From positions 4,979,001 through 5,043,000 of the forward strand of contig NZ_CP090349.1 in the NCBI RefSeq assembly GCF_021398735.1: a stretch of 64,000 nt of DNA, read 5' to 3'. Source of the stretch: Methylobacterium oryzae. Its GTDB lineage: Bacteria > Pseudomonadota > Alphaproteobacteria > Rhizobiales > Beijerinckiaceae. The notes beneath the pieces were generated by a model that saw only the letters and a program-made list of their open reading frames with translations, was not told where the DNA came from and searched no databases. Below, piece after piece: positions 4,481-57,297 of this stretch; the first letter of the stretch is position 1, and each line of letters opens with the position of its first letter. The translations under genes were made by a program, and so were the position numbers.

Positions 4481-4560
4481 GATGGCTGCTTTCGGGATCA
4501 GCCAGACAGCTGTCCACAAAGCGGTATGGGTCGGCACCAGTCCGTTCGGTCCTGGAGCCG
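4481..4560 (+). repeat. Copy of dispersed intergenic repeat
   Basis: Contains GGCTGCTTTCGGGA followed 40 bases later by ATGGGTCGGCACCAGTCCG. These are the two core blocks of the imperfect repeat described for 51145-51290. The copy abuts the decayed HD-GYP fragment. Confidence 0.5.
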
Positions 4561-4880
4561 GTCGATCCGATCCAGCAGCCGCTCGAGCACGGACAGGGCC
4601 GGGAGGATGTCGGTCGGAGCGAGGAGCCGGGCCTGGGCCTCGGCGCGGGCAGCGTTGCCTCAGGTGAGAAACAGAAACAGGGCGCCGGTCGCGCGCAGCG
4701 GCTCCGAAGTCAGCCCGGCGACGTCGCCGACGATGAGGTCCGGCAGCTCCGCCGGCGCGATGTCGTCATACAGGTCGTGGACGGTGCAACGCCGCGCGGG
4801 GCCGAGGGAACGTGCGAGGCGCCCGGTCCGGATCATCAGAGATCAGCAACAGCCCGCCCAAGGCGGCCTCCGTGCGACGA
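4541..4880 (-). pseudogene. HD-GYP protein, N-terminal fragment (module copy A)
   Basis: On the minus strand the DNA aligns with the first ~120 codons of the intact HD-GYP gene at 51294-52358: a start region reading LLLISDD, then RRCTVHDLYDD, DLIVGDVAGLTSE, FLFLT and ARAEAQARLLAPTDILPAL. There is a deletion after the receiver-like Asp motif, a TGA inside what should be LTHGNAARAE, and loss of frame. The homology stops near the RIDRL segment, so the entire HD-GYP catalytic domain is missing. It lies downstream of the decayed small gene and MCP copy A, in the same order as the intact operon at 51-54 kb. Confidence 0.8.
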
Positions 4881-4919: not shown

Positions 4920-5229
4920 TCACAGAGTGGGCGGAAACCGCTGCGTCGAGTTGGCGAGCTCCTCTGCCGCGCTCACGAAGCTTCGCAAGGCTTCGATCGT
5001 GGCAGCATCCTGCAGCCCAAGCTCATGGAGCGAGAGATCCATATCCTTGATCGGGTGCTCCAACGCGCGGCTCAGTTGGAGCAGCCTTTCGCCGCCGGCC
5101 TAGATGTGCGGCGCGCGCGCCGAGATCCTCGCCCCGCGCGTACGCGGCAGCGAGATTTGCGTGCAGCCGGTCGGACTGGTCTGAGCCGTTCGGCCGGGCC
5201 GGGACGACGCGGATCTCGGCCGTGGCCAC
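4920..5229 (-). pseudogene. Small helical module protein, frameshifted (copy A)
   Basis: Homologous to the intact 117-residue protein at 52406-52759. It begins with GTG immediately after the MCP copy A stop and reads RLHANLAAAYARGEDLG in frame. It then shifts frame near the HI-QAGG segment; in the ancestral frame a TAG follows directly. The C-terminal part is still readable in another frame (AGGERLLQLSRALEHPIKD, ending in TQRFPPTL). At least one frameshift plus one nonsense codon make it a pseudogene. Confidence 0.8.
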
Positions 5230-5231
5230 CC

Positions 5232-6923
5232 TCAGGCGGCGCGCACGGTTGCGAGGAAGCGGGCGACCTCGGCGCCGAGATGCTCGGATTGCCGCGACAG
5301 CTCCGAGGCCGCCGACAGGACCTGCGAGGCCGCAGCCCCCGTCTCCTCCGACGCCTGCGCCACGCCGGCGATGTTGCCCGTCACCGCGTGCGTCCCCGCC
5401 GAGGCCTGCGCCACGTTGCGGACGATCTCCTGGGTCGCCGCGCCCTGCTCCTCGACGGCGGCCGCGATCGAGGTCGCCACGCTGTCGATCTCCTGGATGC
5501 GGCCCGTGATCCCGCCGATCGCCGTCACCGCCTGCGCGGTCACCCCCTGGACCTCGCCGATCTGGCGCGCGATCTCCTCGGTCGCCTTGGCGGTCTGCTC
5601 GGCCAGCGCCTTCACCTCGGAGGCCACGACCGCGAAGCCCCGCCCGGCCGCGCCGGCGCGGGCCGCCTCGATGGTGGCGTTGAGCGCCAGCAGGTTGGTC
5701 TGGCCGGCGATGCCGGAGATCATCCCGACCATGTCGCCGATCCGCGCGGCGTTCTGGCTGAGCGCCTGGACGAGGTGGGCGGTCTGGTCGGCCTCGCCGA
5801 CCGCGGCCTGGGCGAGGTGGGCCGAGCCGGTCACCTGCCGGCCGATCTCCTGCACGGAGGAGCCGAGCTCCTCGGCGGCGGCAGCGACCGTGTTGACGTT
5901 GGTCGACGCCTCCTCGGCGGCGGCGGCCACGGTGGTCGACTGGGATGCGGTCTCCTGGGCGGTGGCGGTCATCTGCTGGGCGGTGGCCTGGAGTTCGGTG
6001 GCCGAGGACGAGACCAGGCCGACGATCCCGCCGACGGCGCGCTCGAAGCCGTCGGCGAGCTCGATCATGGTACGCTTGCGCTCGGCAGCCGCGGCCTCAT
6101 CGGCGCGGCGTTTCACCTCGGCCTCCTCGGCGGCCTTGCGGGCGACCATGGTCTTGATGCCCTCGACGGCCTGGCCGACGGCCCCGATCTCGTCGCCGCG
6201 GGCGGCCTCGCGGATCTCGGCGTCGACCGCGCCCTTGGCCATCCGCTGCAGGACGCCCACGAGGCTGCCCAGCGGGCGGGTGATGCCGAAGATCACGATC
6301 AGCGCGGAGAGCGCGACGGCGCTGACGAGGCCAGCCACGGAGGCGCCGATCAGCACGGTTTTAGCCGTGGTGACGGCCTGCTCGGAGTCATCGCGGGCTT
6401 GGCGCAGCTCGGCGTTCAGCCGCGTGACGCGACCTTGAACAAAATCCCGCATCTTGGTGCGCGCGGCAGAAGCGTCAGTCAGAAGGACCTTAGCAGCAGC
6501 TTCATTGTCATTCTTGAGGCCGAGCGCGTTGGATTTATCCAGAGCAGAGTAGAACTCCTTGAGAATACTCTGGAGAGTTTCGTTGGTGACCTTCCGATCG
6601 GGCGTGTCCGCCATCGCGATCAAGGTGTTCGCAGCATCGAGTGACGTCTTTACAGCCGCATCGTACCGCACTTTATAGCCGGCCATCTCCTGCTCGCGGG
6701 TTTCGAGAATGAGGTTGCGCGCCTGGATCGCTGCATCGTTGGTGTTGACCTGAACAGCCAAGATCCGTTCGAGGCGGACTGCCTGCGTGTCGACGATCTC
6801 GCGCATTTGCCCTGCGAGTAGATTGAGCTCTCCGATGGCGTAATGAACCAGGCCGGCGGCGACTGCGGCCATGATCAGCAGCGGAACAGACGCCTTGATC
6901 AGGATACTGGAGTTTCGCAGCAT
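5232..6923 (-). CDS. Methyl-accepting chemotaxis protein (module copy A)
   Basis: A 563-residue transmembrane chemoreceptor. TM1 is at about residues 8-29, a four-helix-bundle ligand domain at 30-185, TM2 at 188-211, then HAMP ([18 protein letters not shown]) and a cytoplasmic signalling domain with the hairpin tip [17 protein letters not shown] and EVKALAEQT. It should couple to CheW/CheA and control flagellar switching. There is no C-terminal methyltransferase-tethering pentapeptide. The HAMP and signalling half is nearly identical, down to DNA level, to the MCP at 52761-54452, while the sensory half has diverged. It heads a minus-strand operon whose next two genes are dead, and its upstream region is AT-rich (6924-7080). 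Confidence 0.96.
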
Positions 6924-8040
6924 AGAGGCACCACTTTATACTTCTTTAAGTGACACAAAGTAATCTGCATTACTTAAAATAATATTAAAATACATTGATT
7001 ATGCAGATCATGCAACAGAGATTTCAATATAATATTCGATAATAGAATGATGGAGTAGATTACGAGTGTGCACCTGAATATCGTTATCTGGAGATACGAC
7101 AACGCAATCAATCGATGCTTAATGGCGAATATCGGTATCCAGGATGCATTCGCGAGACAGGTCACGCTCGATGGCTGGCTGCCTCGGCATCATCATCGGT
7201 GTAGCAGATTTGATCGCGGTCACCGCCGCCTTATGGCGCACCGCATGCCTGATCCTTAACATTCAGCGTCGGGGTAAGCTCCAAGACAGCCGACGCCCTC
7301 TTAAGCCTCATGGCAGTTGACGTATCTGACCCGTCAACGGTCCGAGGCGTGACGCGATCGCGGCCAGGCGATCGGCGATTGCCGAAAACTTGCAGCTTCA
7401 TCCCGGCTACCGGGATATCCTCTGGAAGAAGCCCGCACCCGAGGGTCCGACGGTCTCTATAGAGATCCAGAAGACTTGCCCCACGGCAATCGCGTTCCGG
7501 GATGTGAGACCGCACTCAATCGATGGAGTCCGACGATCCGTGGAAGGCCGCTTTCAGGAACCGTCAGCTCCGTTCCGGCCGTCTGGGTTGGGTCGCGATT
7601 GGCCGTGAGCATAGTCACGCTGACAGGGCCCTGTTCCGAGCAGACAAAATCCGGCGCTGGAGCGCTGTTATGCGACCGGCCGCGGGCGTCGGGAAGGGAT
7701 CCAGACTCGTCAGGGCGGAAACGCGGTGAGCGATTCTGATGGCCTCGTGACGAGTCGAGCCGCCTGCAAGACGCGGCCTGCTGTGAGGCGCGTCATGCGC
7801 TCGACGCCACCCTGCGTTGAATCACGATAAGCGCATTGTCCTAAGCACGCGATTCCGAGTGCCTCGAAGCGCTGTATCGCCCGGATATCAACCACCGATA
7901 GCCAGATCAACGCGAGTGCCTTTACCTAAAGTAGTCATTATGAATACATTACATTAATGTGGATTAGATTTCATATGCGCCGCGTCTTTCTAAGACGTAT
8001 AGACAATTTTCGACCGAAATGTGCGGGAGTAGACAGAGAA
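6924..8040. other. Long intergenic region between divergent MCP and MucR genes
   Basis: 1.1 kb with no supportable gene. The two ends (6924-7080 and 7925-8040) are strongly AT-rich against a GC-rich background and probably hold the MCP and mucR promoters. The last 45 bases before the MucR start (CGTATAGACAATT and GGGAGT blocks) are conserved at the MucR pseudogene, 54997-55034. A partial copy of the dispersed repeat lies at 7548-7605 (GGCCGCTTTCAGGAA and CTGGGTTGGGTCGCG). The remainder looks like degraded sequence. Confidence 0.55.
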
Positions 8041-8490
8041 ATGAATAATGATGCGGCCAACGCATGCAACGTCTCCCTCGATTACAGCGCAATGACGGCG
8101 AACCTCGTGGCGGCCTACGTGTCTCACAATCGCGTCGCAGCCTCGGAGATGCCGGCGCTGATCGCGACGGCGGCCGCTGCCCTGACCGGCCTTCAGCCCA
8201 CCGATCCGTCGACCGCGGATGGAGACAGGAAAGCGACACCGAAGATGGTCCGGGCGTCGATCACACGCGAGGCACTGATCAGCTTCGAGGATGGTAAGCG
8301 GTACAAGACGATCAAGCGGCATCTGACCGCCTGTGGTTTGACGCCGGAGACGTACCGGGCGAAGTGGGGCCTGCCGAACGACTACCCGATGGTCGCTCCT
8401 GCCTACGCGGCGAAGCGATCCAGGATCGCCAGGAGCTTGGCGCAGGGTCGGTCCCAGCGCGATCCCGGTCCGGAAACTGCAGCCGGATAG
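8041..8490 (+). CDS. MucR/Ros-family transcriptional regulator
   Basis: A 149-residue DNA-binding regulator. The N-terminal helix NLVAAYVSHNRVAA and the C-terminal block RYKTIKRHLTACGLTPETY, then RAKWGLPNDYPMVAP, are diagnostic of MucR/Ros. In classic members the strand before this block supplies zinc-binding Cys; here it reads ALISFEDGKR, with Ser where Cys is expected, as in zinc-independent members. MucR proteins bind AT-rich DNA broadly and act on motility, exopolysaccharide and cell-cycle genes. The start at 8041 is preferred over 7957 because homology to the paralogue at 55035 begins there. Divergent from MCP copy A, it is the intact member of a duplicated pair. Confidence 0.93.
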   Translation: MNNDAANACNVSLDYSAMTANLVAAYVSHNRVAASEMPALIATAAAALTGLQPTDPSTADGDRKATPKMVRASITREALISFEDGKRYKTIKRHLTACGLTPETYRAKWGLPNDYPMVAPAYAAKRSRIARSLAQGRSQRDPGPETAAG

Positions 8491-27526: not shown

Positions 27527-27550
27527 GGGCTCTGACGCACTTTCGCTGAT
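27527..27550 (+). repeat. ISL3 left terminal inverted repeat
   Basis: Twenty-four bases matching the right end (29157-29180) in inverted orientation with a single G/T difference at position 11. The transposase stop lies at its inner edge. Confidence 0.92.
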
Positions 27551-36683: not shown

Positions 36684-38513
36684 GTGTCCCATCCCGATCT
36701 GAGGCTTGTCGAGGCTGTTGATAGTCCGGGAGATGAGGCGCTCCTACGACATGCAAACACGTCGATTTCTGTTCGGGACAACGCCGTAGCTTCGCATGCA
36801 GAGCTCGGCAATAATGCCGGCATCGCCTTCCCAGGCATGGTCGCGACTGAACAGAGTCTTCTGTTCGAAGCCGCTTTGCAGAACATGATCCAGGGCCTGT
36901 GCATGTTCGATGCGCAGGGCCGCCTCGTCGTGTCGAACAGGCGCTATCGCGACATCTTCGGCATCCCGCAGGACATGATCCTCACGGGCATGACCCAGCG
37001 CGATATCTGTGCCTCTTTGGTTGCGCGGGGCCTCTACTCGCCGGGACTCAGTCTCGAGGAGATCGAGCGCAGCACTCAGGACGCGCTGCAATCGATCGAG
37101 CCCGCGCCGATCACGCGCGAACTCACCAACGGACGCACGTTGGCGATCAACTATCGCGTCATGAACGGCGGCGGCTGGGTCTCGACCTTCGAGGATATCA
37201 CCGAGCAGCGGCGGAGCGCGGAGCGCATCGCCTACTTGGCCCACCACGACGCCCTGACCGACCTTGCCAACATCCGGTCGATGCGCCAGGGCTACCGCGA
37301 CCTGGTCGAGGCGCGGGACGACGAACAGCCGCTGCTGGCGATGTTCTACATCGACCTCGACCGCTTCAAATTCGTCAACGACACCTACGGGCACGCGGCC
37401 GGCGACGAGCTCCTGCAGGAGGTCGCCGCGCGGCTGCGGAGGAACACGCGGCGGGGCGACGTCGTGGCCCGCCTCGGCGGCGACGAGTTCGCGCTCGTGC
37501 AGCGCGTGAGTGTCGATGCCGCTGCGACATCGACCGCCCAGCGCCTCGTCAACGTCCTGTCGGAGCCGTTCGATCTCGCGTGCGGCCGCGTCCATACCGG
37601 CGCCAGCATCGGCCTCGCGATCCGCGCGGTCCAGGACCTGGACATGGACCCGCTGCTGCATGATGCCGACCTCGCCCTGCGCCATTCGAAGACCGAGGGG
37701 CGCGGCATCGTCAGCGTCTTCGAAGCCAGCATGTCGGAGGCCTTCGAGGCGCGTCGGCAGATCGAAGCCGACCTCCAGGCCGCGCTGACGGCGGAGCAGT
37801 TCGAGTTGCACTACCAGACCCTCGTCGATGCCCGAGACGGACACGTCGCCTGCGTCGAGGCGCTGGTGCGCTGGTGCCATCCGACACGCGGCCTGCTCCC
37901 ACCGCTGTCCTTCATTCCCCTGGCGGAGGAATCCGGCCTCATCCTGCCCCTCGGCCGCTGGATCCTGAAGCGGGCCTGCCTGGATGCCTTGGCGTGGCCC
38001 GAGACCGTCGATGTCGCCGTCAACGTCTCCAGCGTCCAGATGCGTCAGAAGGGTTTCGGCGCGGAGGTGCTTGCGTTGTTGGCGGAGACCGGCCTGGCCC
38101 CCGCGCGGTTGGAGATCGAGATCACCGAGACCGCGCTGCTGGAGGAGAGCGAGGCGACCCGGGACAATCTCGCCGCGCTCAACGGCGCCGGCATCCGGAT
38201 CGCCATGGACGATTTCGGCACCGGCTACTCGTCTCTGAGCTACCTGCGCCGGTTCCCGATCGACAAGATCAAGATCGACCGCTCGTTCATGAGCGAGGCC
38301 GAGACAAGCCCCGACGCGCGCGCCATCATCCGGGCCGTGGCCGGCCTGGGCGTCAGCCTGGGCATCACCACGGTGGTCGAGGGCATCGAGACGGCGCAGC
38401 AGCTGGAACTCGCCCGGGCCGAGGGCGTCGGGCAGGTCCAGGGCTACCTCCTGAGCCGGCCGCAGCCGCACGCGGCGCTGTCGAGAACAGGTCTTCCGAA
38501 GCACGTCTGGTGA
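36684..38513 (+). CDS. PAS-GGDEF-EAL cyclic-di-GMP enzyme
   Basis: A 609-residue cytoplasmic protein. A PAS domain of the PAS_7 type (about 60-175, MIQGLCMFDAQGRLVVSNRR) precedes GGDEF (about 185-345) with intact active site GGDEF at 265-269 and inhibitory site RRGD just upstream, and then EAL (about 355-600) with VEALVRW (EAL at 392-394), ITETALLEE, DDFGTGYSSL and KIDRSF. Both halves keep catalytic residues, so it could make or degrade c-di-GMP depending on the PAS signal. Start is GTG 36684. The AT-rich upstream region recalls those of the chemoreceptor genes. Confidence 0.96.
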   Translation: MSHPDLRLVEAVDSPGDEALLRHANTSISVRDNAVASHAELGNNAGIAFPGMVATEQSLLFEAALQNMIQGLCMFDAQGRLVVSNRRYRDIFGIPQDMILTGMTQRDICASLVARGLYSPGLSLEEIERSTQDALQSIEPAPITRELTNGRTLAINYRVMNGGGWVSTFEDITEQRRSAERIAYLAHHDALTDLANIRSMRQGYRDLVEARDDEQPLLAMFYIDLDRFKFVNDTYGHAAGDELLQEVAARLRRNTRRGDVVARLGGDEFALVQRVSVDAAATSTAQRLVNVLSEPFDLACGRVHTGASIGLAIRAVQDLDMDPLLHDADLALRHSKTEGRGIVSVFEASMSEAFEARRQIEADLQAALTAEQFELHYQTLVDARDGHVACVEALVRWCHPTRGLLPPLSFIPLAEESGLILPLGRWILKRACLDALAWPETVDVAVNVSSVQMRQKGFGAEVLALLAETGLAPARLEIEITETALLEESEATRDNLAALNGAGIRIAMDDFGTGYSSLSYLRRFPIDKIKIDRSFMSEAETSPDARAIIRAVAGLGVSLGITTVVEGIETAQQLELARAEGVGQVQGYLLSRPQPHAALSRTGLPKHVW

Positions 38514-38602: not shown

Positions 38603-39637
38603 CTAGGCGCCGTCCGGATCGAAGGCAATTATCACCGGGCGGAACGCGTTGACGAGATCGGCGTCTAACCGGCCGGTCATCGATTGCACGATGCTGTAAG
38701 CCTCTCGACCCGTCATCGCCGGCCGGTACGGGCGCCGCTCGATGAGCGCACCGTAGATGTCGCAGATCGTCACCAGCCGCACCAGGTCGGGGATCTCCGG
38801 CGCCCTCAGGCCGTCCGGGTAGCCTGAGCCGTCGAGCATCTCGTGATGCGACCGCACGACCTGCAACACCTCCTGCGAGAAGCCGCTGTCCACCAACATC
38901 TCGTAGCCGATGGCCGCGTGCATGCGCATCACCGTCATCTCCGGCTCGGTCAGTCGACCCGGCTTGTTGAGGATCGACAGGGGAATCTTCGTCTTCCCGA
39001 CATCGTGCACCAGAGCCGCCTTTGTCAGCCTGGAGCTGTCAAAATCATGGAGCCCCAACTCGATCGCGAACGCGGCAGAGAGGCCGGCGACGATCAGGCA
39101 GTGCTGCTGCGTTGCCTCGTCGAAGCGCCGTACGGCGCTGATCCAATCGCGGATGCCGCATTGCTGTACCGCGCGCATGACCAGTTCGGCGCCGGTGCTC
39201 GCTAGCTCCGGCGTGACCGCCCGGCCGGAGAAGAAGGTCTGAACGAAGAAGAGCCGTGCTGCGGCCGCCAGCTCCGTCGCGATAGCAGAGCCACCCTGAT
39301 CCTGAAGCTGCTCGATCGTCTCTCGCATCAGCTCGATCGCCGATGTGGCTGAGAGAGTATCGTCGGCACTGAGCAGCCGCGCCTGTGCCTCGGCACGAGC
39401 GGCGTTGCCGTGGATCAGGAACAGGAACGGCGCGCCCGCTGCGCGTACCGGCTTCAGAAGCCGTTTGAAGCGCACGATCGCGTCCGAGGTGAGCTGTGCC
39501 ACGTCGCCTATGATCAGGTCGGGCACAACTGCCGGTTCCACTTCGGCGTAGAGGTCGTGGATCGAGCAGTGTCGTGTCGAACCGAGGTCGCGGGCGAGGC
39601 GCCCGGACCGGGACAGATCGTCGGAGATCAACAACAC
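38603..39637 (-). CDS. HD-GYP phosphodiesterase with receiver-like N-terminus (module copy C)
   Basis: About 344 residues from GTG 39637, which has AGGGG five bases upstream and aligns with the paralogue at 51294-52358; an in-frame start at 39739 would overlap the small gene. The N-terminal ~100 residues are receiver-like (VLLISDDLSRSGRLARDLG, DLIIGDVAQL). The C-terminal HD-GYP domain has HDVGKTKIPLSILNKPGRLT and HHEMLDGSGYPDGL, all key metal and GYP residues. It should hydrolyse c-di-GMP. Last gene of a minus-strand operon after a small helical protein and a truncated PAS chemoreceptor. Confidence 0.93.
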   Translation of the reverse strand: MLLISDDLSRSGRLARDLGSTRHCSIHDLYAEVEPAVVPDLIIGDVAQLTSDAIVRFKRLLKPVRAAGAPFLFLIHGNAARAEAQARLLSADDTLSATSAIELMRETIEQLQDQGGSAIATELAAAARLFFVQTFFSGRAVTPELASTGAELVMRAVQQCGIRDWISAVRRFDEATQQHCLIVAGLSAAFAIELGLHDFDSSRLTKAALVHDVGKTKIPLSILNKPGRLTEPEMTVMRMHAAIGYEMLVDSGFSQEVLQVVRSHHEMLDGSGYPDGLRAPEIPDLVRLVTICDIYGALIERRPYRPAMTGREAYSIVQSMTGRLDADLVNAFRPVIIAFDPDGA

Positions 39638-39675
39638 TGCGCCCCTGTGCTTCCCCCTCGCAAACGCTGGGATTG

Positions 39676-39984
39676 TCAGGCGTTGGCCGGAAACCGCTGC
39701 GCCGTACCGGCGAGCCTCTCGACCGCACCGACGAGGCACCGCAGCGCTTCACACGTTGCCGGATCCAACAGGCCGACCTCGGTCAGCGATCGATCCAGCC
39801 CGTCGAGGGCACCCTGGAACGCACGGCTCAGCTCCAGAAGCCTCTCACTGCCTGCATGGATGTACGGCACCCGCGAGCCGAGATGCTCCCCGCGCGCGTG
39901 TGCGGCTGCCAGATCGGCACTCAGGCGCCCAAACTGGCTCAAGCTGGAAGGCCGGATCGGAAGTCGTATCGAGGAAGTTGCCGT
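39676..39984 (-). pseudogene. Small helical module protein, start lost (copy C)
   Basis: Homologous to the protein at 52406-52759: LPIRPSSLSQFGRLSADLAA, then AHARGEHLGSR and SERLLELSRAFQGALDGLD, ending AQRFPANA. The frame is open to the stop at 39676. The first codons are missing: the sequence joins directly to the remnant of a PAS domain upstream, and the only start codon is a TTG at 39942. It may still be made as an 88-residue form, but the original start has been lost by deletion. Confidence 0.6.
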
Positions 39985-39988
39985 TGGC

Positions 39989-40459
39989 CTACAGGATCGT
40001 GCCGGTCGGATCGAAGGCGATCACCGCCTGCGACCGGTGCAGCGCCGCGATCTGACCGGCATAGTCGAGCATCTGCAGCTTCTGCGCCGTGACGTCGGAC
40101 GCGACTTTGACCACCTTCACGACGCGGCCGGAGCGGTCGAGCACCGGGTTGTAGCTCGCCTGGACCCAGACGTACCGGCCGCCCTGGGCGATCCGCTTGA
40201 ACTCGGCGACCTGATGGGTGCCCTGCCGCAGGGCGTCCCAGAAGGCGTGGTACGCGGGTGTCTCCCGATGCGCCGCCTCCACGAACAGGGCGTGGCGCTG
40301 GCCCCGGATGTCGGGCAGGGCGTAGCCCATCATCGTCAGGAAATTGGCGTTGGCCGTGATGATGGTGCCGTCCGGCTCGAACTCGATGACGGCCTGAGAC
40401 CGGTCGAGGGCGTCGAATGTGAATGAAATATCCCTACGTGCGCCCCCAATACCGAACAT
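39989..40459 (-). pseudogene. PAS-PAS chemoreceptor truncated after first PAS
   Basis: 156 codons. The N-terminal sequence (DRSQAVIEFEPDGTIITANA, then FLTMMGYALPDIRGQRHALF and VVKVASDVTAQKLQMLDYAG) is a complete PAS typical of soluble PAS-PAS-MCP receptors. A second PAS begins (RSQAVIAFDPTGTIL) but stops at TAG where Thr is expected; the next codons still read AN-NFL, the family continuation. Then the sequence runs straight into the small module gene, so the rest of PAS2 and the whole MCP domain are deleted. It may still be translated as a lone PAS protein. Upstream DNA is AT-rich. Confidence 0.7.
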
Positions 40460-47408: not shown

Positions 47409-48010
47409 TTACTTCCCCGCTGGACTTTTGAGCAGCTTGTCCCGAGGTGTTGGGGAATGAAACATACCTCCGAGGAAAGCCGGGAAGGCGTTCATATTCT
47501 GGTTGCCGTGTCGGCTCTCCGGCCGCAACGCGGTGACGACGGAACGCTCGACAGAAAACTTCCGCAGGACAGGCACCAGCGCACCTCGCTCGACGTGGAA
47601 CGCGACGACATACGACAGCGAGATGCCGATGCCGCCGACCACGAGGATGGCCGCGACCGCATCGCTGAAGTCTGCGACGCCGCCGGCGTTCGGCGTGAGA
47701 TCAACCGCGCGGCCGCCGATCCGGAACGGCCAGCGCAAAGCCTGGCCCGCACTCTGGAAGCGGAAATTCAAGCGGTCGTGGTGGATGTGGTCGTCCGGAT
47801 GCTGCGGTGTCCCGCGCTGCTCTAGGTAGATTTGGGACGCGAAAGCGCAGAGCCGATGCGGCGCGAGACGCCGGGAGAGCAAGCGGGAGCCGGGCAGTTC
47901 GCCCACGCGGACCGCCACGTCAATGCCCTCCTCGATGAGGTCGGCGACGCGGTCCCTAGGGCGCTGGTCGACAAATAGTTTGGGGTGGCGCTTCACGGAT
48001 TGCAGCCCCG
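47409..48010 (-). pseudogene. LysR-type regulator, C-terminal fragment
   Basis: The frame encodes most of a LysR substrate-binding domain: HPKLFVDQRPRDRVADLIEE, GIDVAVRVGELPGSRLLSRR, DHIHHDRLNFRF, and AAILVVGGIGISLSYVVAFH. The N-terminal helix-turn-helix is absent; homology ends near 48000, where the sequence runs into the upstream region of the hybrid kinase on the other strand. A truncated regulator gene without DNA-binding domain. Confidence 0.8.
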
Positions 48011-48111
48011 GCGGTGTGCAAGGCTGGTCAGGAACCTTCCTCGGGGTAAACGCACTTGGATTAGCCACGAGAGGCGCCGCGGCCGCGGTAAACGGAAGAG
48101 AAGCATCCTTC

Positions 48112-50226
48112 GTGTCGGGGGACGAACTGAAGACCCTCTCCCGTGGGGAGCTCGAGGCCGAGATCCTGCGTCTGCGCGGGTCCGAGGCCGCCATCCGTCA
48201 GAGGGAGGAGCGTTTCCGGACGATCCTGGAGACGGTCGATGCGGCCTTCGCCATCGTCGAGGTCAAGTTCGACGCCGAGGACCGGCCGGTCGACTACCGC
48301 TTCGTAGAGGCCAACCCTGCCTTCGAGCGCGAGTCGGGCGTCAACCTTCGCGGCAAGTGGGTAACCGAGTTCGCCCCTGACCTGGAGCCCTTCTGGTTCG
48401 AGACTTACGGGCGGGTCGCCAAGGCCCGGGAACCCGCGAACTTCGAGAGCTATGCTGAGGCGTTCTCGCGCTGGTTCGACGTGCGCGCTGTTCCCGTCGG
48501 TGACCCTGCGGACCGGCAGATTGCCATCATCTTCAACAACGTGACCGCCCGACGCGAGGCCGAAGAGCGCCTGCGCGCCAGCGAGGCGCTCGCACGGGCT
48601 AACATTGAGCGCGTGCAACTCGCCCTGGCCGCTGGCGCGATCATCGGCACGTGGCACTGGGACCTACCGTCCGACCGGTTCACGGTCGACGAAGCCTTCG
48701 CCCGAAGCTTCGGGCTCGATCCAGCGCTCGGCCGCGAGGGCATCCCGCTGGCGCAGATCGTAGCCACCGTACATCCTGACGACCAAGCGGGTTTGGCGGA
48801 AGCGATCAACGAGGCCGTCGGCCGGGGCGGCGCCTATGCGCACCAGTACCGGGTGCGCCGGTTGAACGGGCGCTACTACTGGATCGAAGCCAATGGCCGG
48901 GTCGACCACGCGCCGGACGGCACGCCCCTGAGCTTTCCCGGCGTGCTCCTCGACGTCGAGGAGCGTCGTGTTGTCGAACAGGAGCGGGACCGGGCCATCA
49001 CCCAGTTGCGCGCCCTCACCGAAACTCTCGAGCAGCGCGTCGGCGAGCGCACGGCCGAGCTGATGAACGCTGAGGAGCAGCTCCGCCAATCGCAGAAGAT
49101 GGAGGCGGTCGGACAACTCACGGGAGGGCTTGCCCACGACTTCAACAACCTGCTGGCCGGCATCTCCGGCAGCTTGGAGTTGATGGGCACCCGTATCGAG
49201 CAGGGGCGCCTCAAGGACGTCGACAAGTATATGGCCGCCGCGCAGGGGGCGACGAAGCGGGCGGCGGCGCTGACCCACCGCCTGCTGGCCTTCTCGCGTC
49301 GGCAGACGCTCGCGCCGAAAGGCACCGACGTGAACGCCCTGGTCGATGGCATGCTCGACCTGATCCGGCGGACGGTCGGGCCGAGCGTTCAGCTTGAGAC
49401 GGCCGGACCCACGGACCTATGGCCGACTCTGGTCGACCCGTCCCAGCTCGAGAACGCGCTGCTGAACCTCTGCATCAACGGCCGCGACGCGATGCCGGAC
49501 GGGGGGCGCATCGTCATCGAGACCGGCAACCGTCGGATCACTCCCCGAGTCGCCGAGCGACAGGATATGCCGGCCGGTGAGTACCTGTCGCTGAGCGTCT
49601 CGGACACCGGCACCGGCATGCCCCCGGAAGTGGTGGCGAAGGCGTTCGACCCATTCTTCACGACCAAGCCGCTCGGCCAGGGGACCGGCCTCGGCCTTTC
49701 GATGATCTACGGCTTCGTCAAGCAGTCCGGCGGGCAGGTCCGCATCCACTCGAACGTGGGGCAGGGCACAACGGTCACGGTTTACCTCCCGCGCCACAGG
49801 GGCGAGGCTGAGCGTGACGAGGCCCTGCCGGAGGAAGGATCCCCGGCATTGGCACAGGCCGGCGAGACCGTCCTTGTGGTGGACGACGAGCCCAGCGTGC
49901 GCATGCTGGTGACGGACGTGCTGAGCGACCTCGGCTACACCGCCGTGGAGGCTGCGGATGGGGCGGGCGGTCTTAAGGTGCTCCAGTCCGACGCCCGTAT
50001 TGACTTGCTCGTCACCGATGTGGGCCTGCCCAATGGCTTGAACGGCCGTCAGATGGCCGACGCCGCTCGGGTCTCGCGGCCCGGCCTCAAGGTTCTGTTC
50101 ATCACCGGCTACGCCGAGAGCACGCTGCTGACGGACGGCCAGATGGAACCGGGGATGGCCGTCCTGACCAAGCCGTTCGCCGTCGATGCGCTGGCATCGC
50201 GCATCCGCGATTTGATCGCGAATTGA
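48112..50226 (+). CDS. Hybrid histidine kinase, PAS-PAS-HisKA-REC
   Basis: About 704 residues from GTG 48112, which has GGAAGAGAAG eight bases upstream; longer in-frame starts would overlap the dead lysR. PAS 1 (about 40-150, LETVDAAFAIVEVKF), PAS 2 (about 165-290, PSDRFTVDEAFARSFGL), coiled coil, HisKA with phospho-His in LTGGLAHDFNNLLAGISGS, HATPase_c with GTGMP and GQGTGLGLSMIYGF, and a C-terminal receiver with VVDDEPSVRML, phospho-Asp in LLVTDVGLPNG and Lys in VLTKPFA. Soluble. The internal receiver suggests a phosphorelay or self-regulation. The next gene downstream on the opposite strand is an incomplete receiver. Confidence 0.94.
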   Translation: MSGDELKTLSRGELEAEILRLRGSEAAIRQREERFRTILETVDAAFAIVEVKFDAEDRPVDYRFVEANPAFERESGVNLRGKWVTEFAPDLEPFWFETYGRVAKAREPANFESYAEAFSRWFDVRAVPVGDPADRQIAIIFNNVTARREAEERLRASEALARANIERVQLALAAGAIIGTWHWDLPSDRFTVDEAFARSFGLDPALGREGIPLAQIVATVHPDDQAGLAEAINEAVGRGGAYAHQYRVRRLNGRYYWIEANGRVDHAPDGTPLSFPGVLLDVEERRVVEQERDRAITQLRALTETLEQRVGERTAELMNAEEQLRQSQKMEAVGQLTGGLAHDFNNLLAGISGSLELMGTRIEQGRLKDVDKYMAAAQGATKRAAALTHRLLAFSRRQTLAPKGTDVNALVDGMLDLIRRTVGPSVQLETAGPTDLWPTLVDPSQLENALLNLCINGRDAMPDGGRIVIETGNRRITPRVAERQDMPAGEYLSLSVSDTGTGMPPEVVAKAFDPFFTTKPLGQGTGLGLSMIYGFVKQSGGQVRIHSNVGQGTTVTVYLPRHRGEAERDEALPEEGSPALAQAGETVLVVDDEPSVRMLVTDVLSDLGYTAVEAADGAGGLKVLQSDARIDLLVTDVGLPNGLNGRQMADAARVSRPGLKVLFITGYAESTLLTDGQMEPGMAVLTKPFAVDALASRIRDLIAN

Positions 50227-50464: not shown

Positions 50465-50986
50465 CTACGTTTTGTCCGGCTCGGTCGTGGGAGCTGCGAC
50501 AACGCCCATCCCGCTGCCCATCTCCGTCCCGGTATGGGGCGGCACGCCGCTCGGGAGCACGGGAGCGCCTGAGGGCTCGTCCTGTACCTGTGCGAGGCCA
50601 GCTTCCACCTCATGGATGAGGTCTGCAAAGTCGTAGGGCTTGCTGAGCAGTCGCGTGCCCGGCGGCAACTCCTCTCGGAGATCTGATCCGGCTCCCGAGG
50701 TGACGATAATGCCGACAGTGGGCCAACGGTGATGAACGAGGTGGGCAAGGGCAACACCATCGCCCACGATGCCGCGTCCAGTGATCAGCATGCTCACAGG
50801 CATCGGTCCTTCGAGAACCGCCAGCGCCTCGGCGGCTGTGCGGACCTCTATAGTCTGGAAGCCGACGTCTTCCAGCATGTCGGCCGTGACCATACGGACG
50901 ACCTCATCAGCCTCCGCGATGAGGATGGCTAAAGGCCTGCTGTTAGCCAAAACCGTGCTCCGTATGATCAGGCCGGGAGCGCTCAC
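50465..50986 (-). CDS. Receiver-like protein lacking the phospho-Asp
   Basis: A 173-residue protein with a CheY-like fold: ILIAEADEVVRMVTADML, then VSMLITGRGIVGDGVALA, GIIVTSGAGSD and LLSKPYDFADLIHE. The strand-3 Asp that accepts phosphate in true receivers is Gly (LITGRG), while the upstream acidic residues and the Lys are kept. The last ~45 residues are Pro/Gly-rich. It cannot be phosphorylated in the normal way, so it may be a constitutive binding partner or phosphorylation-independent receiver. Convergent with the hybrid kinase. Confidence 0.85.
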   Translation of the reverse strand: MSAPGLIIRSTVLANSRPLAILIAEADEVVRMVTADMLEDVGFQTIEVRTAAEALAVLEGPMPVSMLITGRGIVGDGVALAHLVHHRWPTVGIIVTSGAGSDLREELPPGTRLLSKPYDFADLIHEVEAGLAQVQDEPSGAPVLPSGVPPHTGTEMGSGMGVVAAPTTEPDKT

Positions 50987-51293: not shown

Positions 51294-52358
51294 CTAAGCC
51301 GCAGCAGTGCCGGCCGGATCAAACGTGGTCATCACTGGGCGGAACGCCGTGACCAGATCAGGGTCGAGCCGGCCTGTCATAGACTGCACGATCCCGTAGG
51401 CCTGCCTTCCCGGCATCGGTGCCCGGTACGGCCGCCGCTCGATCAGCGCGCCGTAAATGTCGCAGATCGTTACCAGCCGGACGAGGTCCGAGATCTCAGG
51501 TGCCCGCAGCCCGTCCGGGTAGCCGGAGCCATCGAGCATCTCGTGATGCGAGCGGACCACCTGCAGCATCTCCCGCGAGAAGCCGCTATCCACCAGCATG
51601 TCGTAGCCCAGCGCCGCGTGCGTCCGCATCACCGTCATCTCTTCGTCGGTGAGCCGCCCGGGTTTGTTCAGGATCGCGGTCGAGATCCGGGTTTTGCCGA
51701 CGTCGTGCAGCAGCGCCGCCTTGGTCAGGCGGTAGCTGTCCAGATCGGCAAACCCGAGCTTCGCCGCGAACGCGGCAGCGAGACCTGTAACGATCAGGCA
51801 GTGCCGGTGCGTGGCCTCGTCGAAGCGCTGTACCGCCCCGATCCACTCGCGGAGGCCACAATGCTGCACGGCTCGGGCGATCAGGCCGGTGCCGGTGCTC
51901 GCGAGCTCGGGCGTGATTAGCTGGCTCGAGAAGAAGGTCTGGTCAAAGAATTGCCGCGCCTCGTCCGCCATCCGAGCAGCGACGGCGGAGCCACCGACTT
52001 CCAGAAGCCGGTCGATCCGAGCCAGCAGGCGCTCAAGCATGGTCAGGGCCGGGAGGATGTCGGTGGGAGCGAGGAGTCGCACCTGGGCCTCAGCGCGAGC
52101 GGCGTTACCGTGGGTCAGGAACAGGAACGGGGCGCCGGCCCCGCGCAGCGGCTCTAGCATCCGCTGCAGGCGCGCGATCGCCTCGGAGGTAAGCTGAGCG
52201 ACGTCGCCGACGATCAGATCCGGCTGCACCGACGGCAGGCTGTCATCATACAGGTCCTGGACGGTACAGCGCCGGGTCGGGCCGAGGGAACGCGCAAGGC
52301 GACCGGTCCGGGCCAGGTCGTCGGAGATCAACAACAGCCTGCCCAAGCCGGCCTCCAT
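51294..52358 (-). CDS. HD-GYP phosphodiesterase with receiver-like N-terminus (module copy B)
   Basis: A 354-residue protein. The receiver-like N-terminus (5-110) has LLLISDDLARTGRLARSLG and Asp 52 in DLIVGDVAQL. The HD-GYP domain (about 170-340) has HDVGK at 218-222, NKPGRLTDEEMTVMRTHAAL and HHEMLDGSGYPDGL at 271-284, with all residues expected for a c-di-GMP phosphodiesterase. Last gene of the MCP - small protein - HD-GYP operon; its start is 47 bases after the small gene. Paralogues: intact at 38603-39637, dead at 4541-4880. It probably lowers c-di-GMP in response to the receptor. Confidence 0.95.
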   Translation of the reverse strand: MEAGLGRLLLISDDLARTGRLARSLGPTRRCTVQDLYDDSLPSVQPDLIVGDVAQLTSEAIARLQRMLEPLRGAGAPFLFLTHGNAARAEAQVRLLAPTDILPALTMLERLLARIDRLLEVGGSAVAARMADEARQFFDQTFFSSQLITPELASTGTGLIARAVQHCGLREWIGAVQRFDEATHRHCLIVTGLAAAFAAKLGFADLDSYRLTKAALLHDVGKTRISTAILNKPGRLTDEEMTVMRTHAALGYDMLVDSGFSREMLQVVRSHHEMLDGSGYPDGLRAPEISDLVRLVTICDIYGALIERRPYRAPMPGRQAYGIVQSMTGRLDPDLVTAFRPVMTTFDPAGTAAA

Positions 52359-52405
52359 CTGATGCTGGGGCCGGTCTTACGTCCGGCCCGAAGTCGTGAG
52401 CGCAG

Positions 52406-52759
52406 TCAGAGGGTCGCTGGGTACCGCTGCGCTAGGCCGGCGAGGCCGTGCACGGTGTGAGCGAAGCTCTGCGCCGTGTTGGCGAGGCTCTCGGTCTTGA
52501 TGACGAAGTCTCGCAGGGCTTCACGCATGTCCGGATCCCGGAGACCGAGCTTGATCAACGTGAGATCCAGATCCTCGATCGCGCGTTCCAAGGCGCAAGT
52601 CAGTTCGAGCAGCCTGTCGCCACCTGCTTGGATGTGAGGGGCTCGGGGGCCGAGATCCGCGCCACGTTCGTGCGCGGCGGCTAAGTCCGCGTGCAGTCGG
52701 TCGAACTGGTGCGTGCCGTGAGGCCGGACCGGGAGGGCGAGGATCTCGACCATAGCCAT
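52406..52759 (-). CDS. Small helical protein between MCP and HD-GYP genes (copy B)
   Basis: A 117-residue all-helical protein of no family I recognise: LPVRPHGTHQFDRLHADLAA, then HERGADLGPRAPHIQAGGDR, LLELTCALERAIEDLDLTL and ESLANTAQSFAHTVHGLAGL. No signal peptide or Cys. The ATG at 52757-52759 ends one base from the MCP stop, so the two genes are translationally coupled. Homologues lie in the same place at 4920-5229 (dead) and 39676-39984 (start lost), always upstream of an HD-GYP gene. This invariant position suggests a partner or adaptor of the HD-GYP protein or receptor. Confidence 0.85.
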   Translation of the reverse strand: MAMVEILALPVRPHGTHQFDRLHADLAAAHERGADLGPRAPHIQAGGDRLLELTCALERAIEDLDLTLIKLGLRDPDMREALRDFVIKTESLANTAQSFAHTVHGLAGLAQRYPATL

Positions 52760-52760
52760 C

Positions 52761-54452
52761 TCAGGCGGCGCGGACGGTGGCGAGGAAGCGGGCGACCTCG
52801 GCACCGAGATGCTCGGATTGCCGCGACAGCTCCGAGGCCGCCGACAGGACCTGCGAGGCCGCCGCCCCCGTCTCCTCCGACGCCTGCGCCACGCCGGCGA
52901 TGTTGCCCGTCACTTCGTTCGTCCCCGCCGAGGCCTGCGCCACGTTGCGCACGATCTCCTGTGTCGCCGCCCCCTGCTCCTCGACGGCGGCCGCGATCGA
53001 GGTCGCCACGCTGTCGATCTCCCGGATCCGCCCGGTGATCCCGCCGATCGCCGTCACCGCCTGCGCGGTCACCCCCTGGACCTCGCCGATCTGACGGCTG
53101 ATCTCCTCCGTCGTCTTGGCAGTCTGGTCGGCGAGCGCCTTCACCTCGGTGGCCACGACCGCGAAACCCCGACCCGCGGCACCCGCCCGCGCCGCCTCGA
53201 TCGTGGCGTTGAGCGCCAGCAGGTTGGTCTGGGCGGCGATCCCCGAGATCATCCCGACCATGTCGCCGATCCGCGCGGCGTTCTGGCTGAGCGCCTGGAC
53301 GAGGTGGGCGGTCTGGTCGGCTTCGCCGACCGCGGCCTGGGCAAGGTGGGCCGAGCCGGTCACCTGCCGGCCGATCTCCTGCACGGAGGAGCCGAGTTCC
53401 TCGGCCGCGGCCGCGACCGTGTTGACGTTGGTCGAGGCCTCCTCGGCGGCCGCGGCCACGCTGGTCGATTGCGCAGCGGTCTCCTCGGCGGTGGCGGTCA
53501 TCTGCTGGGCGGTGGCCTGGAGCTCGGTGGCCGAGGACGAGACCAGGCCGACGATGCCGCCGACGGCGCGCTCGAAGCCGTCGGCGAGCTCGATCATGGT
53601 GCGCTTGCGCTCGGCAGCCGCGGCCGCGTCGGCGCGGCGCCGGACCTCGGCCTCCTCGGCGGCCTTGCGGGCGACCATGGCCTTGATGCCCTCGACCGCC
53701 TGACCGACGGCGCCGATCTCGTCGCCGCGGGTGGCCTCGCGGATCTCGGCATCGACCTCGCCGTGGGCCATCCGCTGCAGCACCCCCACCAGGCTGCCCA
53801 GCGGGCGGGTGATGCCGAAGATCACGATCAGGGCGGAGAGCAGGGCGGCGCCGACGAGGCCGGCCGCGGAGGCACCGATCAGCACGATCCTGGCGGTGCT
53901 CACCGCCTGCTCGGCATCGTCGCGCGCCTGCCGCAGCTCGGCGTTGAGGACATCGACCCGTTCCTGCACGAACTCGCGCATCTTTTTGCGCGAAGCCGCA
54001 GCGTCGATCAGGAGAGCCTTGGTCGCGCCGTCGTTGTCGTTCTTCAGGCCGAGAGCGGTTGCCCGATCCTGCGCGGCATAGAACTCCTCCAGGATGGTCT
54101 TGAGCGTCTGATTGGCGGCTTTACGCTCTGGTGTGTCGGCCAAGGAGATCAGGGTTTCGGTGGCCTCTTTAGTAGCCTTCAACGTGGCGTCGTAGCGAGC
54201 CTTGTAGGCGGCCATCTCCGCCTCACGGGTCTCAAGGATGAGATTGCGTGACTGAATGGCGAGTTCGTTGACATGGGATCGCAGGCTCAGGATCCTTTCG
54301 AGCCGAACAGCTTGCAGGTCGACGATCGTGCGGGTTTGCTTGGCAAGTGCGTCGAGGCATGTAATCGCATAGACCATCAATCCCGCGGCAATGAACGCCA
54401 TTAAGGCGAGCGGCACGATGGCCTTGATGATGATTTTCGAACTGCGCAGCAT
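52761..54452 (-). CDS. Methyl-accepting chemotaxis protein (module copy B)
   Basis: A 563-residue chemoreceptor, same length as that at 5232-6923. TM1 is at about 8-28, a four-helix-bundle sensor at 30-185, TM2 at 188-211, HAMP ([18 protein letters not shown]), and the signalling hairpin tip [17 protein letters not shown]. The HAMP-to-C-terminus DNA is nearly identical to copy A, while the sensor domain differs at many positions. It likely senses a different ligand but feeds the same chemotaxis array. First gene of the operon with the small protein and HD-GYP. The upstream region (54453-54560) is AT-rich. Confidence 0.96.
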
Positions 54453-55034
54453 GGATATGCCCTAGACCGACTAATCCCGATCAGATCATATGATCCGCCG
54501 CATATTACTAAAAATCTAACGTTTTCAAATTTTAAGATTGACGACTTCTAGGAATGATTTATTCGGAGTCGATCTTATATTGAGTGCATTTGAATCCGTG
54601 CGCGCGTCGGGTCTCGAACATTTTCGAAGAACGTCGGGCATATTCACGCTCCGGACTCGGGTGGGAAATCATCCGGATATGACAGATCGATCTCGCGCGC
54701 CGCCGCTTCCCGGCAGTCGGCCGGGATAAAGCTGGTGCGACCCATGACGCCCCAGAAAGCACTCGAAGCCCCCCCCGCGCTCGCGACATGCGCGCTACGG
54801 CACCCTGCGTTGGACAGCAATCATCGCAATGTCATCCAAGCGACAATCTTCGTGGCCCTCAGCACTCTTTCGTCTGCAATTTCAAGCAATAGTATGTGTG
54901 AAAGATCATGACCTCATCTTAAATGATTGTATTTTGAATAATCTCACTATTCATGGATGAAGTTTAACATTCGAATCGCTTCTCCCGCGCGTATAGTCAA
55001 TTCACGACGCGAACGTATGGGAGTGAACATACCG
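54453..55034. other. Intergenic region between divergent MCP copy B and MucR pseudogene
   Basis: No gene. AT-rich at both ends (54480-54560 and 54890-54960), as in the equivalent region of copy A (6924-8040). The last ~40 bases before the MucR start match those before the intact MucR gene (CGTATAGTCAATT, GGGAGT), so the duplication includes the regulatory segment. Confidence 0.5.
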
Positions 55035-55463
55035 ATGGATACTGACGCAGTCTTTGCAGGAAACAGCCACCTCGATTGCGGCGAGATGAACGCTAACTTA
55101 GTGGCGGCGTATGTGTCGCACAATCGCGTCGCAGCCTTGGAGGTGCCTGCACTGATTACGGCGATGGCTGCGGCCTTCACCGGCCTTCAAACTTCCGATC
55201 AGTCGGCCGTGTCGGGAAGCAGAAGGGTTACACCGGCCCAGATCCGAGCGTCGATTAGGCACGAGGCGTAAATCAGCTTCGAGGACGGCAAGCCGTACAA
55301 GACGATCAAGCGGCATCTGACGGCGTGTGGCCTGACGCTGGAAACGTACCGAGCTAAGTGGTGCCTGCCAAGCGACTACCCGATGGTGGCCCCTGCCTAC
55401 GGGGCCGAACGGTCCAGGATCGCCAAAAGCTTGGCTATGGGTCGACCTCGGATCGTCCGCTAA
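55035..55463 (+). pseudogene. MucR/Ros-family regulator with internal stop (copy B)
   Basis: A 142-codon frame homologous to the intact MucR at 8041-8490: MNANLVAAYVSHNRVAALEV, then the block FEDGKPYKTIKRHLTACGLT and YPMVAPAYGAERSRIAKSLA. TAA at 55269-55271 interrupts it where the paralogue has Leu (ALISFEDG). The rest of the frame is unbroken, so the nonsense change is probably recent. The truncated product (78 residues) would lack the DNA-binding part. Divergent from MCP copy B, mirroring copy A. Confidence 0.9.
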
Positions 55464-55775: not shown

Positions 55776-56804
55776 TCAGGCGGCCGTGGCCGCCGGTGCG
55801 CGGTAGGTGCCGCCGCGGGTCATGATCGCCCAGGCGACCCGCGCCGTGCGATTGGCCGCCGCCACAGTCACCACGCGCACTGGCTTACGCTGCAGCAGCG
55901 CCGGCAGCCGCGGGTCGACCGAGGTCGGTGTCGTCTTCGCGCGCCGGATCAGAGACGTCATGCCGACCACGAGCAGCCGGCGCAGGTAGCGGTCGCCCAT
56001 GCGTGAGATCCGGCCCAGGCGCTCCTTGCCGCCACTGCAGTTCTGCAGCGGTGTCAGGCCCAACGAGGCAGCGAACTGCCGACCGGAACGGAAGCGCTCG
56101 GGCTCGCTCACCGAGGCGGCCAGCGCGGTTGCCGACACGATGCCGACACCCGGGATCGTCGCAAGCCGCTGCGACAGGTCGCTGTCTCGATGCCAGGTGA
56201 GCAACTCCTTCTCCAGTCGGGTGAGCTGAATCTGCAAGGCACCGATCTGATCGGCCAACCCGGTCACCACGCGCTGGGCTAACGGCGGCACCTCGGCCGC
56301 GTCTCCGGCCGAGAGCCGGGCCGCCAGTTCGAGCGCGTGCCGCAGGCCCCGCGCCATCTCGATCCCAAACTCGGCGAGCAGGCCTCGGATCATGTTCACC
56401 AGCTGCGTGCGTTGCTTGACCAGCAGGTCGCGCGTCCGGTGCAGCGCCAGCGCCGCCTGCTGCTCGGTCGCCTTCACGGGCACGAAGCGCATGCTCGGGC
56501 GCGTCACCGCCTCACAGATGGCAGCGGCATCGTTCGCATCGGTCTTGCCGCGCTTGACGTACGGCTTCACGTAAGCCGGCGGCATCAGCCGCACGTCATG
56601 GCCGAGCTTTATGAGTTCCCGGGCCCAGTGGTGCGCTGTGCCGCACGCCTCCATGCCGATCAGGCACCGTGGCAGCTTGGCGAAGAACGGCGTGACCTGC
56701 GCCCGCCGCAGCGCCTTCCGAACGACGACGTGCCCAGCTGCATCGACGGCGTGAACCTGAAAGATGCTTTTGGCCAGATCGATGCCGACGGTGGTGATCT
56801 CCAT
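55776..56804 (-). CDS. IS110 family transposase
   Basis: A 342-residue IS110-type transposase. The N-terminal DEDD-RuvC-like domain has EITTVGIDLAKSIFQVHAVD and KRGKTDANDAAAICEAV. The C-terminal transposase_20 domain has LATIPGVGIVSATALAASV, FAASLGLTPLQNCSGG and GRISRMGDRYLRRLLVVG. The frame is intact. IS110 elements lack clear terminal inverted repeats, so the element ends were not placed. Start ATG 56804. It sits next to a flavin-binding gene fragment that lacks its N-terminus, probably cut by the insertion. Confidence 0.95.
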   Translation of the reverse strand: MEITTVGIDLAKSIFQVHAVDAAGHVVVRKALRRAQVTPFFAKLPRCLIGMEACGTAHHWARELIKLGHDVRLMPPAYVKPYVKRGKTDANDAAAICEAVTRPSMRFVPVKATEQQAALALHRTRDLLVKQRTQLVNMIRGLLAEFGIEMARGLRHALELAARLSAGDAAEVPPLAQRVVTGLADQIGALQIQLTRLEKELLTWHRDSDLSQRLATIPGVGIVSATALAASVSEPERFRSGRQFAASLGLTPLQNCSGGKERLGRISRMGDRYLRRLLVVGMTSLIRRAKTTPTSVDPRLPALLQRKPVRVVTVAAANRTARVAWAIMTRGGTYRAPAATAA

Positions 56805-56925
56805 GGGGATGGCTCCTGCATGAGCGTGGCTGCTGCTTCGACAGCGACCACATCTTGGCACCGAGATGCCGTCAGTCGGAGCGGGAGCCATCCACCCCAT
56901 CTGCTTTTCTCGCGGACCTTCACGG

Positions 56926-57297
56926 AAGACCAACCCGAAGCTCGGCCTGCTGTTCATCGACTTCGAGACGCCGCACCGCCTGCGCCTCCACGGCACGGCG
57001 CGGATCGCCCGCGACGCGAGGGACCTGGAACGTCATCCTGGCGCCGAGCTGGTGCTCAAGATCGATATCGCCGAGGTGTTCGTGAACTGCCCGCGCTACA
57101 TCCACCGTTACCGTCGGGAGGCTGCGTCAGGCTTCGTGCCGGGGCGGGCACGAGCGGGCGAGGTCCCGGCCTGGAAGAGGATCGATCTGTTCGCGGATGT
57201 TCTGCCCGACCGCGATCGGCGAGCGATCGACCCGCGCGACACCGGGACAATGACCCTGGCCGATTACCGCCTGCTGTTGGAGCGTGGGGAAACCTGA
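56926..57297 (+). pseudogene. Pyridoxamine-5'-phosphate-oxidase-like protein, C-terminal fragment
   Basis: Reads KTNPKLGLLFIDFETPHRLR, then HGTARIARDARDLERHPG and EVFVNCPRYIHRYRRE, the C-terminal half of the FMN-binding split-barrel family of PNPOx-like proteins. The first ~80-90 residues, with most of the FMN site, are absent; upstream sequence belongs to the IS110 end. The fragment ends at a normal stop (57297). Its other half was not found on the left side of the IS110 gene. Confidence 0.8.

Follow-up and report, generated by a model that had tools for sequence, protein, structure and literature searches.

How bacteria with dozens of chemoreceptors assign them different outputs has, to our knowledge, no settled answer. 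A locus of Methylobacterium oryzae raises this question in a specific form. Within a stretch of 64,000 nucleotides (nt) of its 6.65 Mb genome (C1:4979001-5043000; hereafter the window), three open frames stand in a row on the minus strand (51294-54452, copy B) and encode a methyl-accepting chemotaxis protein (MCP), a small helical protein and an HD-GYP phosphodiesterase. What does the small protein do between a chemoreceptor and an enzyme of cyclic diguanylate (c-di-GMP) turnover, and to which of the two is it tied? An earlier interpretation made without database searches, here called the sequence-only reading, described three loci sharing this plan and saw in them a direct receptor-to-c-di-GMP route. 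The shared plan is confirmed, with copy B intact and copies A and C decayed (Table 1). The interpretation was half right: the small protein is usually paired with the receptor, and an enzyme, which can be any of several kinds, is not always present. With its gene directly following those of some receptors, and about one time in four preceding a c-di-GMP enzyme gene, the small protein is a concrete candidate for routing receptor-specific output.

Judged by sequence, the small protein founds an undescribed family that is convincing only in Methylobacterium among the genomes searched. A protein search of 5.8 billion sequences returned 19 relatives of the copy B protein, and 51 when a 51-row alignment served as the query. 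Relatives with an organism in their listed name all belong to Methylobacterium, bar one from a metagenome bin called Microvirga. The names shown are hypothetical or uncharacterized protein only; the present analysis gives this family its partners. Nothing scored above the cut-off in Pfam for the small proteins of copies B and C and five further members, or in NCBIfam for five members, and no description was found in the literature, judged by titles and abstract openings. As the search alignments grew, the number of Methylobacterium genomes with a member rose from 30 to 48 and finally to 50 of 111, a few at weak expect values (E).

Most members have about 90-115 residues and a conserved core around G-x-DLG-x-R-x-x-H/Q-I. 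The structural model of the small protein (predicted local distance difference test, pLDDT, 81; predicted template modelling score, pTM, 0.66) consists of helices only, the long ones spanning residues 35-68 and 74-95. Its best structural alignments are with helical hairpins, and it is predicted to fold as one. Two other identities were considered and rejected. The best conserved histidine (position 40 in 115-residue numbering) is glutamine in many members, which does not suit a histidine phosphotransfer (HPt) protein, and a relationship to HD-GYP proteins was not found by profile comparison (probability 1%).

The link between this family and chemoreceptors is strong. Stretches of 3.5-14 kb were fetched around the matches of the first two Methylobacterium genome searches and around ten matches of the searches at family and order level; a profile scan of these stretches and the window gave 86 small-gene matches at E up to 1e-3. 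Before deduplication, 70 of the 86 have an MCP gene upstream on the same strand within 1.5 kb. The gap between the MCP stop and the small-gene start is exactly 7 nt in 32 of these 70 pairs; of the 38 remaining pairs, 23 have a gap of -1 to 17 nt. For counting, the 77 matches at E up to 1e-8 were taken, the two pieces of copy A were merged and members at least 90% identical were collapsed, leaving 65 representatives. Fifty-three of them lie directly 3' of an MCP gene, in that the receptor match ends within 330 nt of the small-gene match. This adjacency persists down to about 20-30% protein identity and across distinct MCP clades.

The 12 exceptions include L042, with an MCP about 0.7 kb off, L068, at a contig end, and copy C, where a PAS fragment is all that is left of the presumed receptor. 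L055 was flagged as MCP-less, its truncated MCP about 0.7 kb upstream having escaped the signalling-domain query. Also among them are L132 and L149, which have MCPs nearby, not directly upstream, and two weak matches that lack an MCP, L064 and L157. In L136, the member lies 57 nt before a GGDEF-EAL gene and a 10-kb stretch holds no MCP hit. A reversed order, in which the small gene precedes a same-strand MCP gene instead of following it, was seen in L058 and L075 and seemingly, from sequence alone, in L060.

At copy B itself, the stop codon of the MCP gene (TGA) is followed by one base and then the ATG at 52759, the start of the 117-residue protein that had been described as coupled to the receptor stop. 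Relatives favour the second ATG, at 52753, which gives a 7-nt gap and 115 residues instead of 117. Pfam finds MCPsignal and HAMP domains above the cut-off in the receptors of copies A and B; the 4HB_MCP_1 sensor is above it in copy B and below it in copy A. A promoter and terminator scan of copy B gave no signal above chance.

Downstream, the companion gene, as we term the small gene, is followed less regularly by an enzyme. In 62 representatives, three without sufficient room having been dropped, we counted same-strand genes that start no more than 500 nt downstream. A c-di-GMP enzyme follows 16 of the 62: HD-GYP in 11 and GGDEF-EAL instead in 5. The better rule is therefore a c-di-GMP enzyme, not an HD-GYP enzyme. 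The sequence-only reading had made consistent linkage to MCP and HD-GYP genes its test; the neighbour search, carried out here, upholds the MCP linkage and finds that to HD-GYP inconsistent. Among MCPs of the M. oryzae genome without an intact companion, the receptor on contig C2 included, none of 44 is followed by such an enzyme, and the same holds for all but one of 42 MCPs picked by hand from six other companion-bearing genomes.

The 16 enzymes are of three kinds and show several unrelated architectures. Four are of the window's HD-GYP kind or its relatives (copies B and C, the decayed L044, and L072), seven are HD-GYP proteins with an N-terminal receiver (REC-HD-GYP; L061, L066, L053, L169, L062, L130, L151) and five are GGDEF-EAL proteins (L056, L065, L136, L137, L143). 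In a Pfam scan that covered the partner enzymes other than those of L066 and L143, Response_reg and HD_5 were found together in L061, L053, L062, L130, L169, L131 and L151; the architecture of L066 is known from its translation only. Canonical receiver residues are present in the REC-HD-GYP partners. The GGDEF-EAL proteins carry GAF and PAS domains in L056 and L144, GAF in L137, MHYT and PAS in L065, and none of these in L136. As a separate observation, GGDEF or EAL genes also follow companion-less MCP genes in loci L051, L133 and L152 of genomes G109 and G002, which looks like a habit of these two genomes.

The copy B enzyme is closest, by sequence and by fold, to solved HD-GYP enzymes. Residues H218-D219, K222, H247, H271-H272, G279-Y280-P281 and D300 are invariant across 53 aligned sequences, and with its HD metal-binding and GYP residues the protein qualifies as a putative c-di-GMP phosphodiesterase. 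Its N-terminal domain alternates between beta strands and alpha helices in the AlphaFold model, and Foldseek matches it to receivers such as FixJ and HemR, weakly (E 1e-3 to 5e-3). A complete receiver active site consists of an acidic pair, the phosphorylated aspartate, a threonine or serine, and a lysine. In the family of the copy B enzyme, D13, D14 and D52, corresponding to the acidic pair and the putative phospho-aspartate, are nearly invariant.

Receptors and companions do not appear to have descended together. A tree was built from the signalling regions of 55 case and 32 control MCPs, after five case loci with short or broken sequence were dropped. Companion-bearing receptors are scattered over it; they include both 4HB transmembrane and PAS types and are interleaved with companion-less MCPs of the M. 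oryzae genome. The pairing is thus not one inherited block, although the tree may be blurred where receptors have swapped signalling regions. Identity computed in a sliding fashion along copy B gives a mosaic. The receptor sensor part is 93-96% like L328 and 67-73% like L039, whereas the small gene is 93-95% like L039 and 72-77% like L328; the signalling part is 84-98% identical to each other copy compared. It follows that the small gene was exchanged independently of the sensor. Such independence speaks against a function tied to one ligand and suits one at the cytoplasmic output that receptors share. From this pattern, the small protein is probably not a ligand-specific partner.

We propose that the small protein serves chemoreceptors as an accessory companion and helps to route their output to c-di-GMP turnover, most likely with CheA phosphorylating the receiver of the enzyme, and give this reading an even chance. 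Gene linkage is what the data show, and the mechanism is inferred from it. The companion would probably be made from the message of the receptor, its start lying a few bases past the receptor stop. It would work on the signalling output of the receptor, not on ligand sensing. In about a quarter of loci, the unit would lead from the receptor, through CheA and the companion, to c-di-GMP turnover. The receptor would control CheA, and CheA in turn would phosphorylate the REC-HD-GYP enzyme on its receiver. By binding the cytoplasmic part of the receptor, the companion would favour that branch or keep the enzyme near the array. This gene order suggests a plug-in link from chemical sensing to the choice between swimming and settling. 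A receptor-to-c-di-GMP route has gained weight because seven of the 16 enzymes are REC-HD-GYP proteins. This indicates CheA phosphotransfer at least as strongly as the direct form, by contact through the small protein.

Several observations weigh against this proposal. Most members (46 of 62) have no c-di-GMP enzyme within 500 nt, and 61 of the 111 Methylobacterium genomes gave no small-gene match, so the gene is dispensable. The M. oryzae genome has 49 MCP signalling domains, yet a trace of a companion is seen at just three receptors, those of copies A and B and the one with the probable vestige on contig C2. In the alignment of the copy B enzyme, a conserved lysine or threonine is absent at the usual receiver positions, and Pfam Response_reg gave no match at E up to 1. 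Phosphotransfer is consequently doubtful for copy B, where the companion or another partner may have to stand in for it; for the REC-HD-GYP partners, whose residues are canonical, it is plausible. One REC-HD-GYP relative in M. aquaticum has no MCP match in its 9-kb stretch. In addition, a third, non-random control of companion-less MCPs inside the fetched loci has an enzyme in 7 of 27 cases, or 4 of 23 without duplicate loci. These positives represent four distinct places, all in G002 and G109, which share loci. MCP-enzyme pairing therefore occurs without the companion too. Fisher tests, which take loci as independent and leave shared ancestry uncorrected, gave p values of 3e-6 against the first two controls, 0.014 against the own-genome and in-locus sets, 8e-4 against all three, and 9e-5 (5/109) against all three with duplicate loci removed. 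The enrichment of c-di-GMP enzymes behind companion genes looks real but not exclusive.

The same figures lend substance to a simpler account, which we hold to be a serious contender of somewhat lower probability. The companion would modulate its receptor only, through packing, adaptation or kinase control in the array, and motility and c-di-GMP genes would co-travel on the plasmids and islands of the genus. Such a role is consistent with an MCP beside most members where an enzyme is not (53/65 against 16/62), with the enzyme-paired, companion-less MCPs of G002 and G109, and with several loci being plasmid-borne. It fits less well with the excess of enzymes, at 16/62 against 1/86 in two control sets and 5/109 in all three without duplicate loci, or with L136, where a GGDEF-EAL gene follows the companion gene and the stretch has no MCP hit.

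Annotated examples come from plasmids. In M. phyllosphaerae, plasmid CBMB27-p2 has a complete and undamaged set of divergent MucR, MCP, hypothetical protein and HD-GYP genes, annotated independently; the MCP, small protein and HD-GYP protein are 96%, 67% and 87% identical to those of copy B, and the MucR 66% to that of copy A. On plasmid pNMS14P2, an MCP gene is followed by genes for a hypothetical protein and an EAL protein, this being the same locus as L056. On a further M. phyllosphaerae plasmid, CBMB27-p3, a related REC-HD-GYP gene adjoins cheB, cheR, cheW and an MCP gene; the 8.9-kb stretch scanned there holds no small-gene match.

A more ambitious extension of the companion proposal is, in our view, less likely than not. 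The small protein would be a dedicated adaptor that plugs interchangeable enzymes (REC-HD-GYP, degenerate-receiver HD-GYP and GGDEF-EAL) into arrays, with sensor, adaptor and enzyme exchanged as separate modules by recombination. If true, one receptor would steer the flagellar motor and c-di-GMP alike.

Known systems offer partial parallels. Several partners of the small gene have the domain order of RpfG-type REC-HD-GYP regulators, together with canonical receiver residues; the copy B enzyme differs in having a receiver-like fold without the full residue set. Like CheW and other coupling proteins, the small protein is genetically tied to a chemoreceptor. CheW is a beta-barrel protein, however, whereas the small protein has no Pfam CheW match and is predicted to be all helical. 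Passages of PMC8846402 describe the Wsp system, in which the receptor WspA, the kinase WspE and the diguanylate cyclase WspR link an MCP with a 4HB_MCP_1 sensor to a receiver-bearing c-di-GMP enzyme. The Methylobacterium loci likewise tie such an MCP to a c-di-GMP enzyme carrying a receiver. Unlike Wsp, their partner is HD-GYP or GGDEF-EAL rather than of the WspR type, the three-gene module has genes for neither CheA nor CheW, and the receptor gene is followed by one for an additional small protein, of which those passages make no mention. The Caulobacter phosphorelay of PMC11481889 is not related.

Hitch-hiking, in which the small gene is a passenger of MCP duplication and exchange with no signalling role, is unlikely. 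The sporadic spread (50 of 111 genomes), the recombination mosaics and the decayed copies (A and C of the window, the C2 vestige, L044, L045 and L072) are what a passenger would leave. Purifying selection nevertheless acts on the gene. The ratio of nonsynonymous to synonymous substitution (dN/dS) is 0.22-0.53 in 9 of 11 pairs, and the remaining two are too similar to be informative; between copy B and its closest relative, dN is 0.038 and dS 0.115, with an excess of third-position changes. The adjacency kept at low protein identity and across MCP clades likewise speaks against a passenger.

MucR is not a general part of the module. A MucR gene lies divergently upstream in copies A and B, L044, L071 and plasmid CBMB27-p2 of M. 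phyllosphaerae, whereas 37 of 43 loci, including the closest relative L039, have no MucR match. At copy B, where a four-gene set had been described, the MCP, small and HD-GYP genes are intact; the MucR-like gene is broken by an in-frame TAA at 55269-55271, and its ROS_MUCR frame is not intact. A narrow model, with three genes always together, MucR as their regulator and the small protein as a direct coupler of MCP to HD-GYP, as copy B, L039, the CBMB27-p2 module and the REC-HD-GYP loci might suggest, is the least probable account given these MucR findings, HD-GYP in only 11 of 62 loci and its replacement by GGDEF-EAL in five.

Table 1. Genes and gene remnants of the three module copies in the window.
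Feature	Position	Strand	Basis
Copy B MCP, 563 residues	52761..54452	-	Pfam: 4HB_MCP_1, HAMP, MCPsignal
Copy B small helical protein (companion), 117 codons if started at the first ATG (52759)	52406..52759	-	Open reading frame, family searches, predicted all-helical
Copy B HD-GYP phosphodiesterase, 354 residues, degenerate receiver-like N-terminal domain	51294..52358	-	Pfam HD_5, catalytic residues, predicted fold
Copy B divergent MucR-like gene, broken	54954..55445	+	tblastn with copy A MucR, 65% identity
Copy A MCP, 563 residues, intact	5232..6923	-	Pfam
Copy A small gene, broken	4923..5227	-	Profile match in two frames, internal TAG
Copy A HD-GYP remnant, receiver-like N-terminal part only, limits approximate	4541..4870	-	tblastn with residues 6-148 of HD-GYP
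Copy A divergent MucR, 177 residues, intact	7957..8490	+	Pfam ROS_MUCR
Copy C HD-GYP phosphodiesterase, intact	38603..39640	-	70% identical to that of copy B; listed open reading frame to 39739 overlaps small gene
Copy C small gene, N-terminally truncated	39676..39969	-	Profile match
Copy C PAS-domain fragment, probable chemoreceptor remnant with stop TAG and without signalling domain	39989..40459	-	Pfam, sequence

The decay ascribed to the other two copies of the window is borne out. In copy A, the profile match to the small gene is divided between two frames, with an internal TAG in one piece, and the HD-GYP gene retains only its N-terminal part. In copy C, an HD-GYP gene and a truncated small gene do stand behind a PAS remnant, which almost abuts the small gene. 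A PAS-GGDEF-EAL gene (36684-38513, +) is convergent with the copy C HD-GYP gene and ends about 90 nt from its end, placing a second c-di-GMP enzyme there. Besides copies A, B and C, a profile search of the whole genome gave no small-gene match at E < 0.05. A fourth, probable vestige lies on contig C2 behind an MCP gene 97% identical to that of copy A over 1090 nt: its opening codons match the copy A small gene, and its profile score is not significant (E 0.5). No companion gene was found behind the other MCPs of the genome (47 loci, two without an MCP hit). Genome-wide, there are 49 MCP signalling, 7 HD_5, 28 GGDEF and 20 EAL domains.

Outside the genus, no convincing member appeared. The searches at family, order and class level covered 397, 397 and 385 genomes, each set including M. 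oryzae itself and some genomes of its genus. No more than 12 candidates were scored in any one genome, and distant members may therefore have been overlooked. At family level, 20 genomes matched, 13 of them from the same genus; the other seven hits (E 3e-4 to 1e-3) lie inside long reading frames, and none of the six that were fetched reached 1e-3 in the profile scan. At order level, 11 genomes matched, three from the same genus, and among the eight others only G731, from another family, was strong. Its locus (L170, G731:C233:1-9500) is 98% identical over 9.4 kb to the Methylobacterium locus L063, which points to contamination or recent transfer. The remaining seven hits are weak (E 1.5e-4 to 7.4e-4); of three fetched, L177 and L179 stayed just under 1e-3 and one did not. 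The class-level search gave a single match besides M. oryzae, weak and inside a frame of 1079 residues.

Other genes of the window provide context for the module. Transposase genes of IS110 type (55776-56996, -) and ISL3 type (27550-29112, -) lie near the module copies, and such mobile elements may account for module decay and exchange. Beside copy B are genes for an HWE-type histidine kinase (44649-46997, -), a hybrid PAS-HisKA-receiver kinase (47923-50226, +) and a weak single receiver (50465-50986, -). These three and the IS110 transposase are the neighbours scanned, part of the open reading frames of the window; no CheA- or CheW-type gene lies in the three-gene module. Further away, at 17518-18783 (+), the receiver of a response regulator is fused to the catalytic domain of an adenylate/guanylate cyclase.

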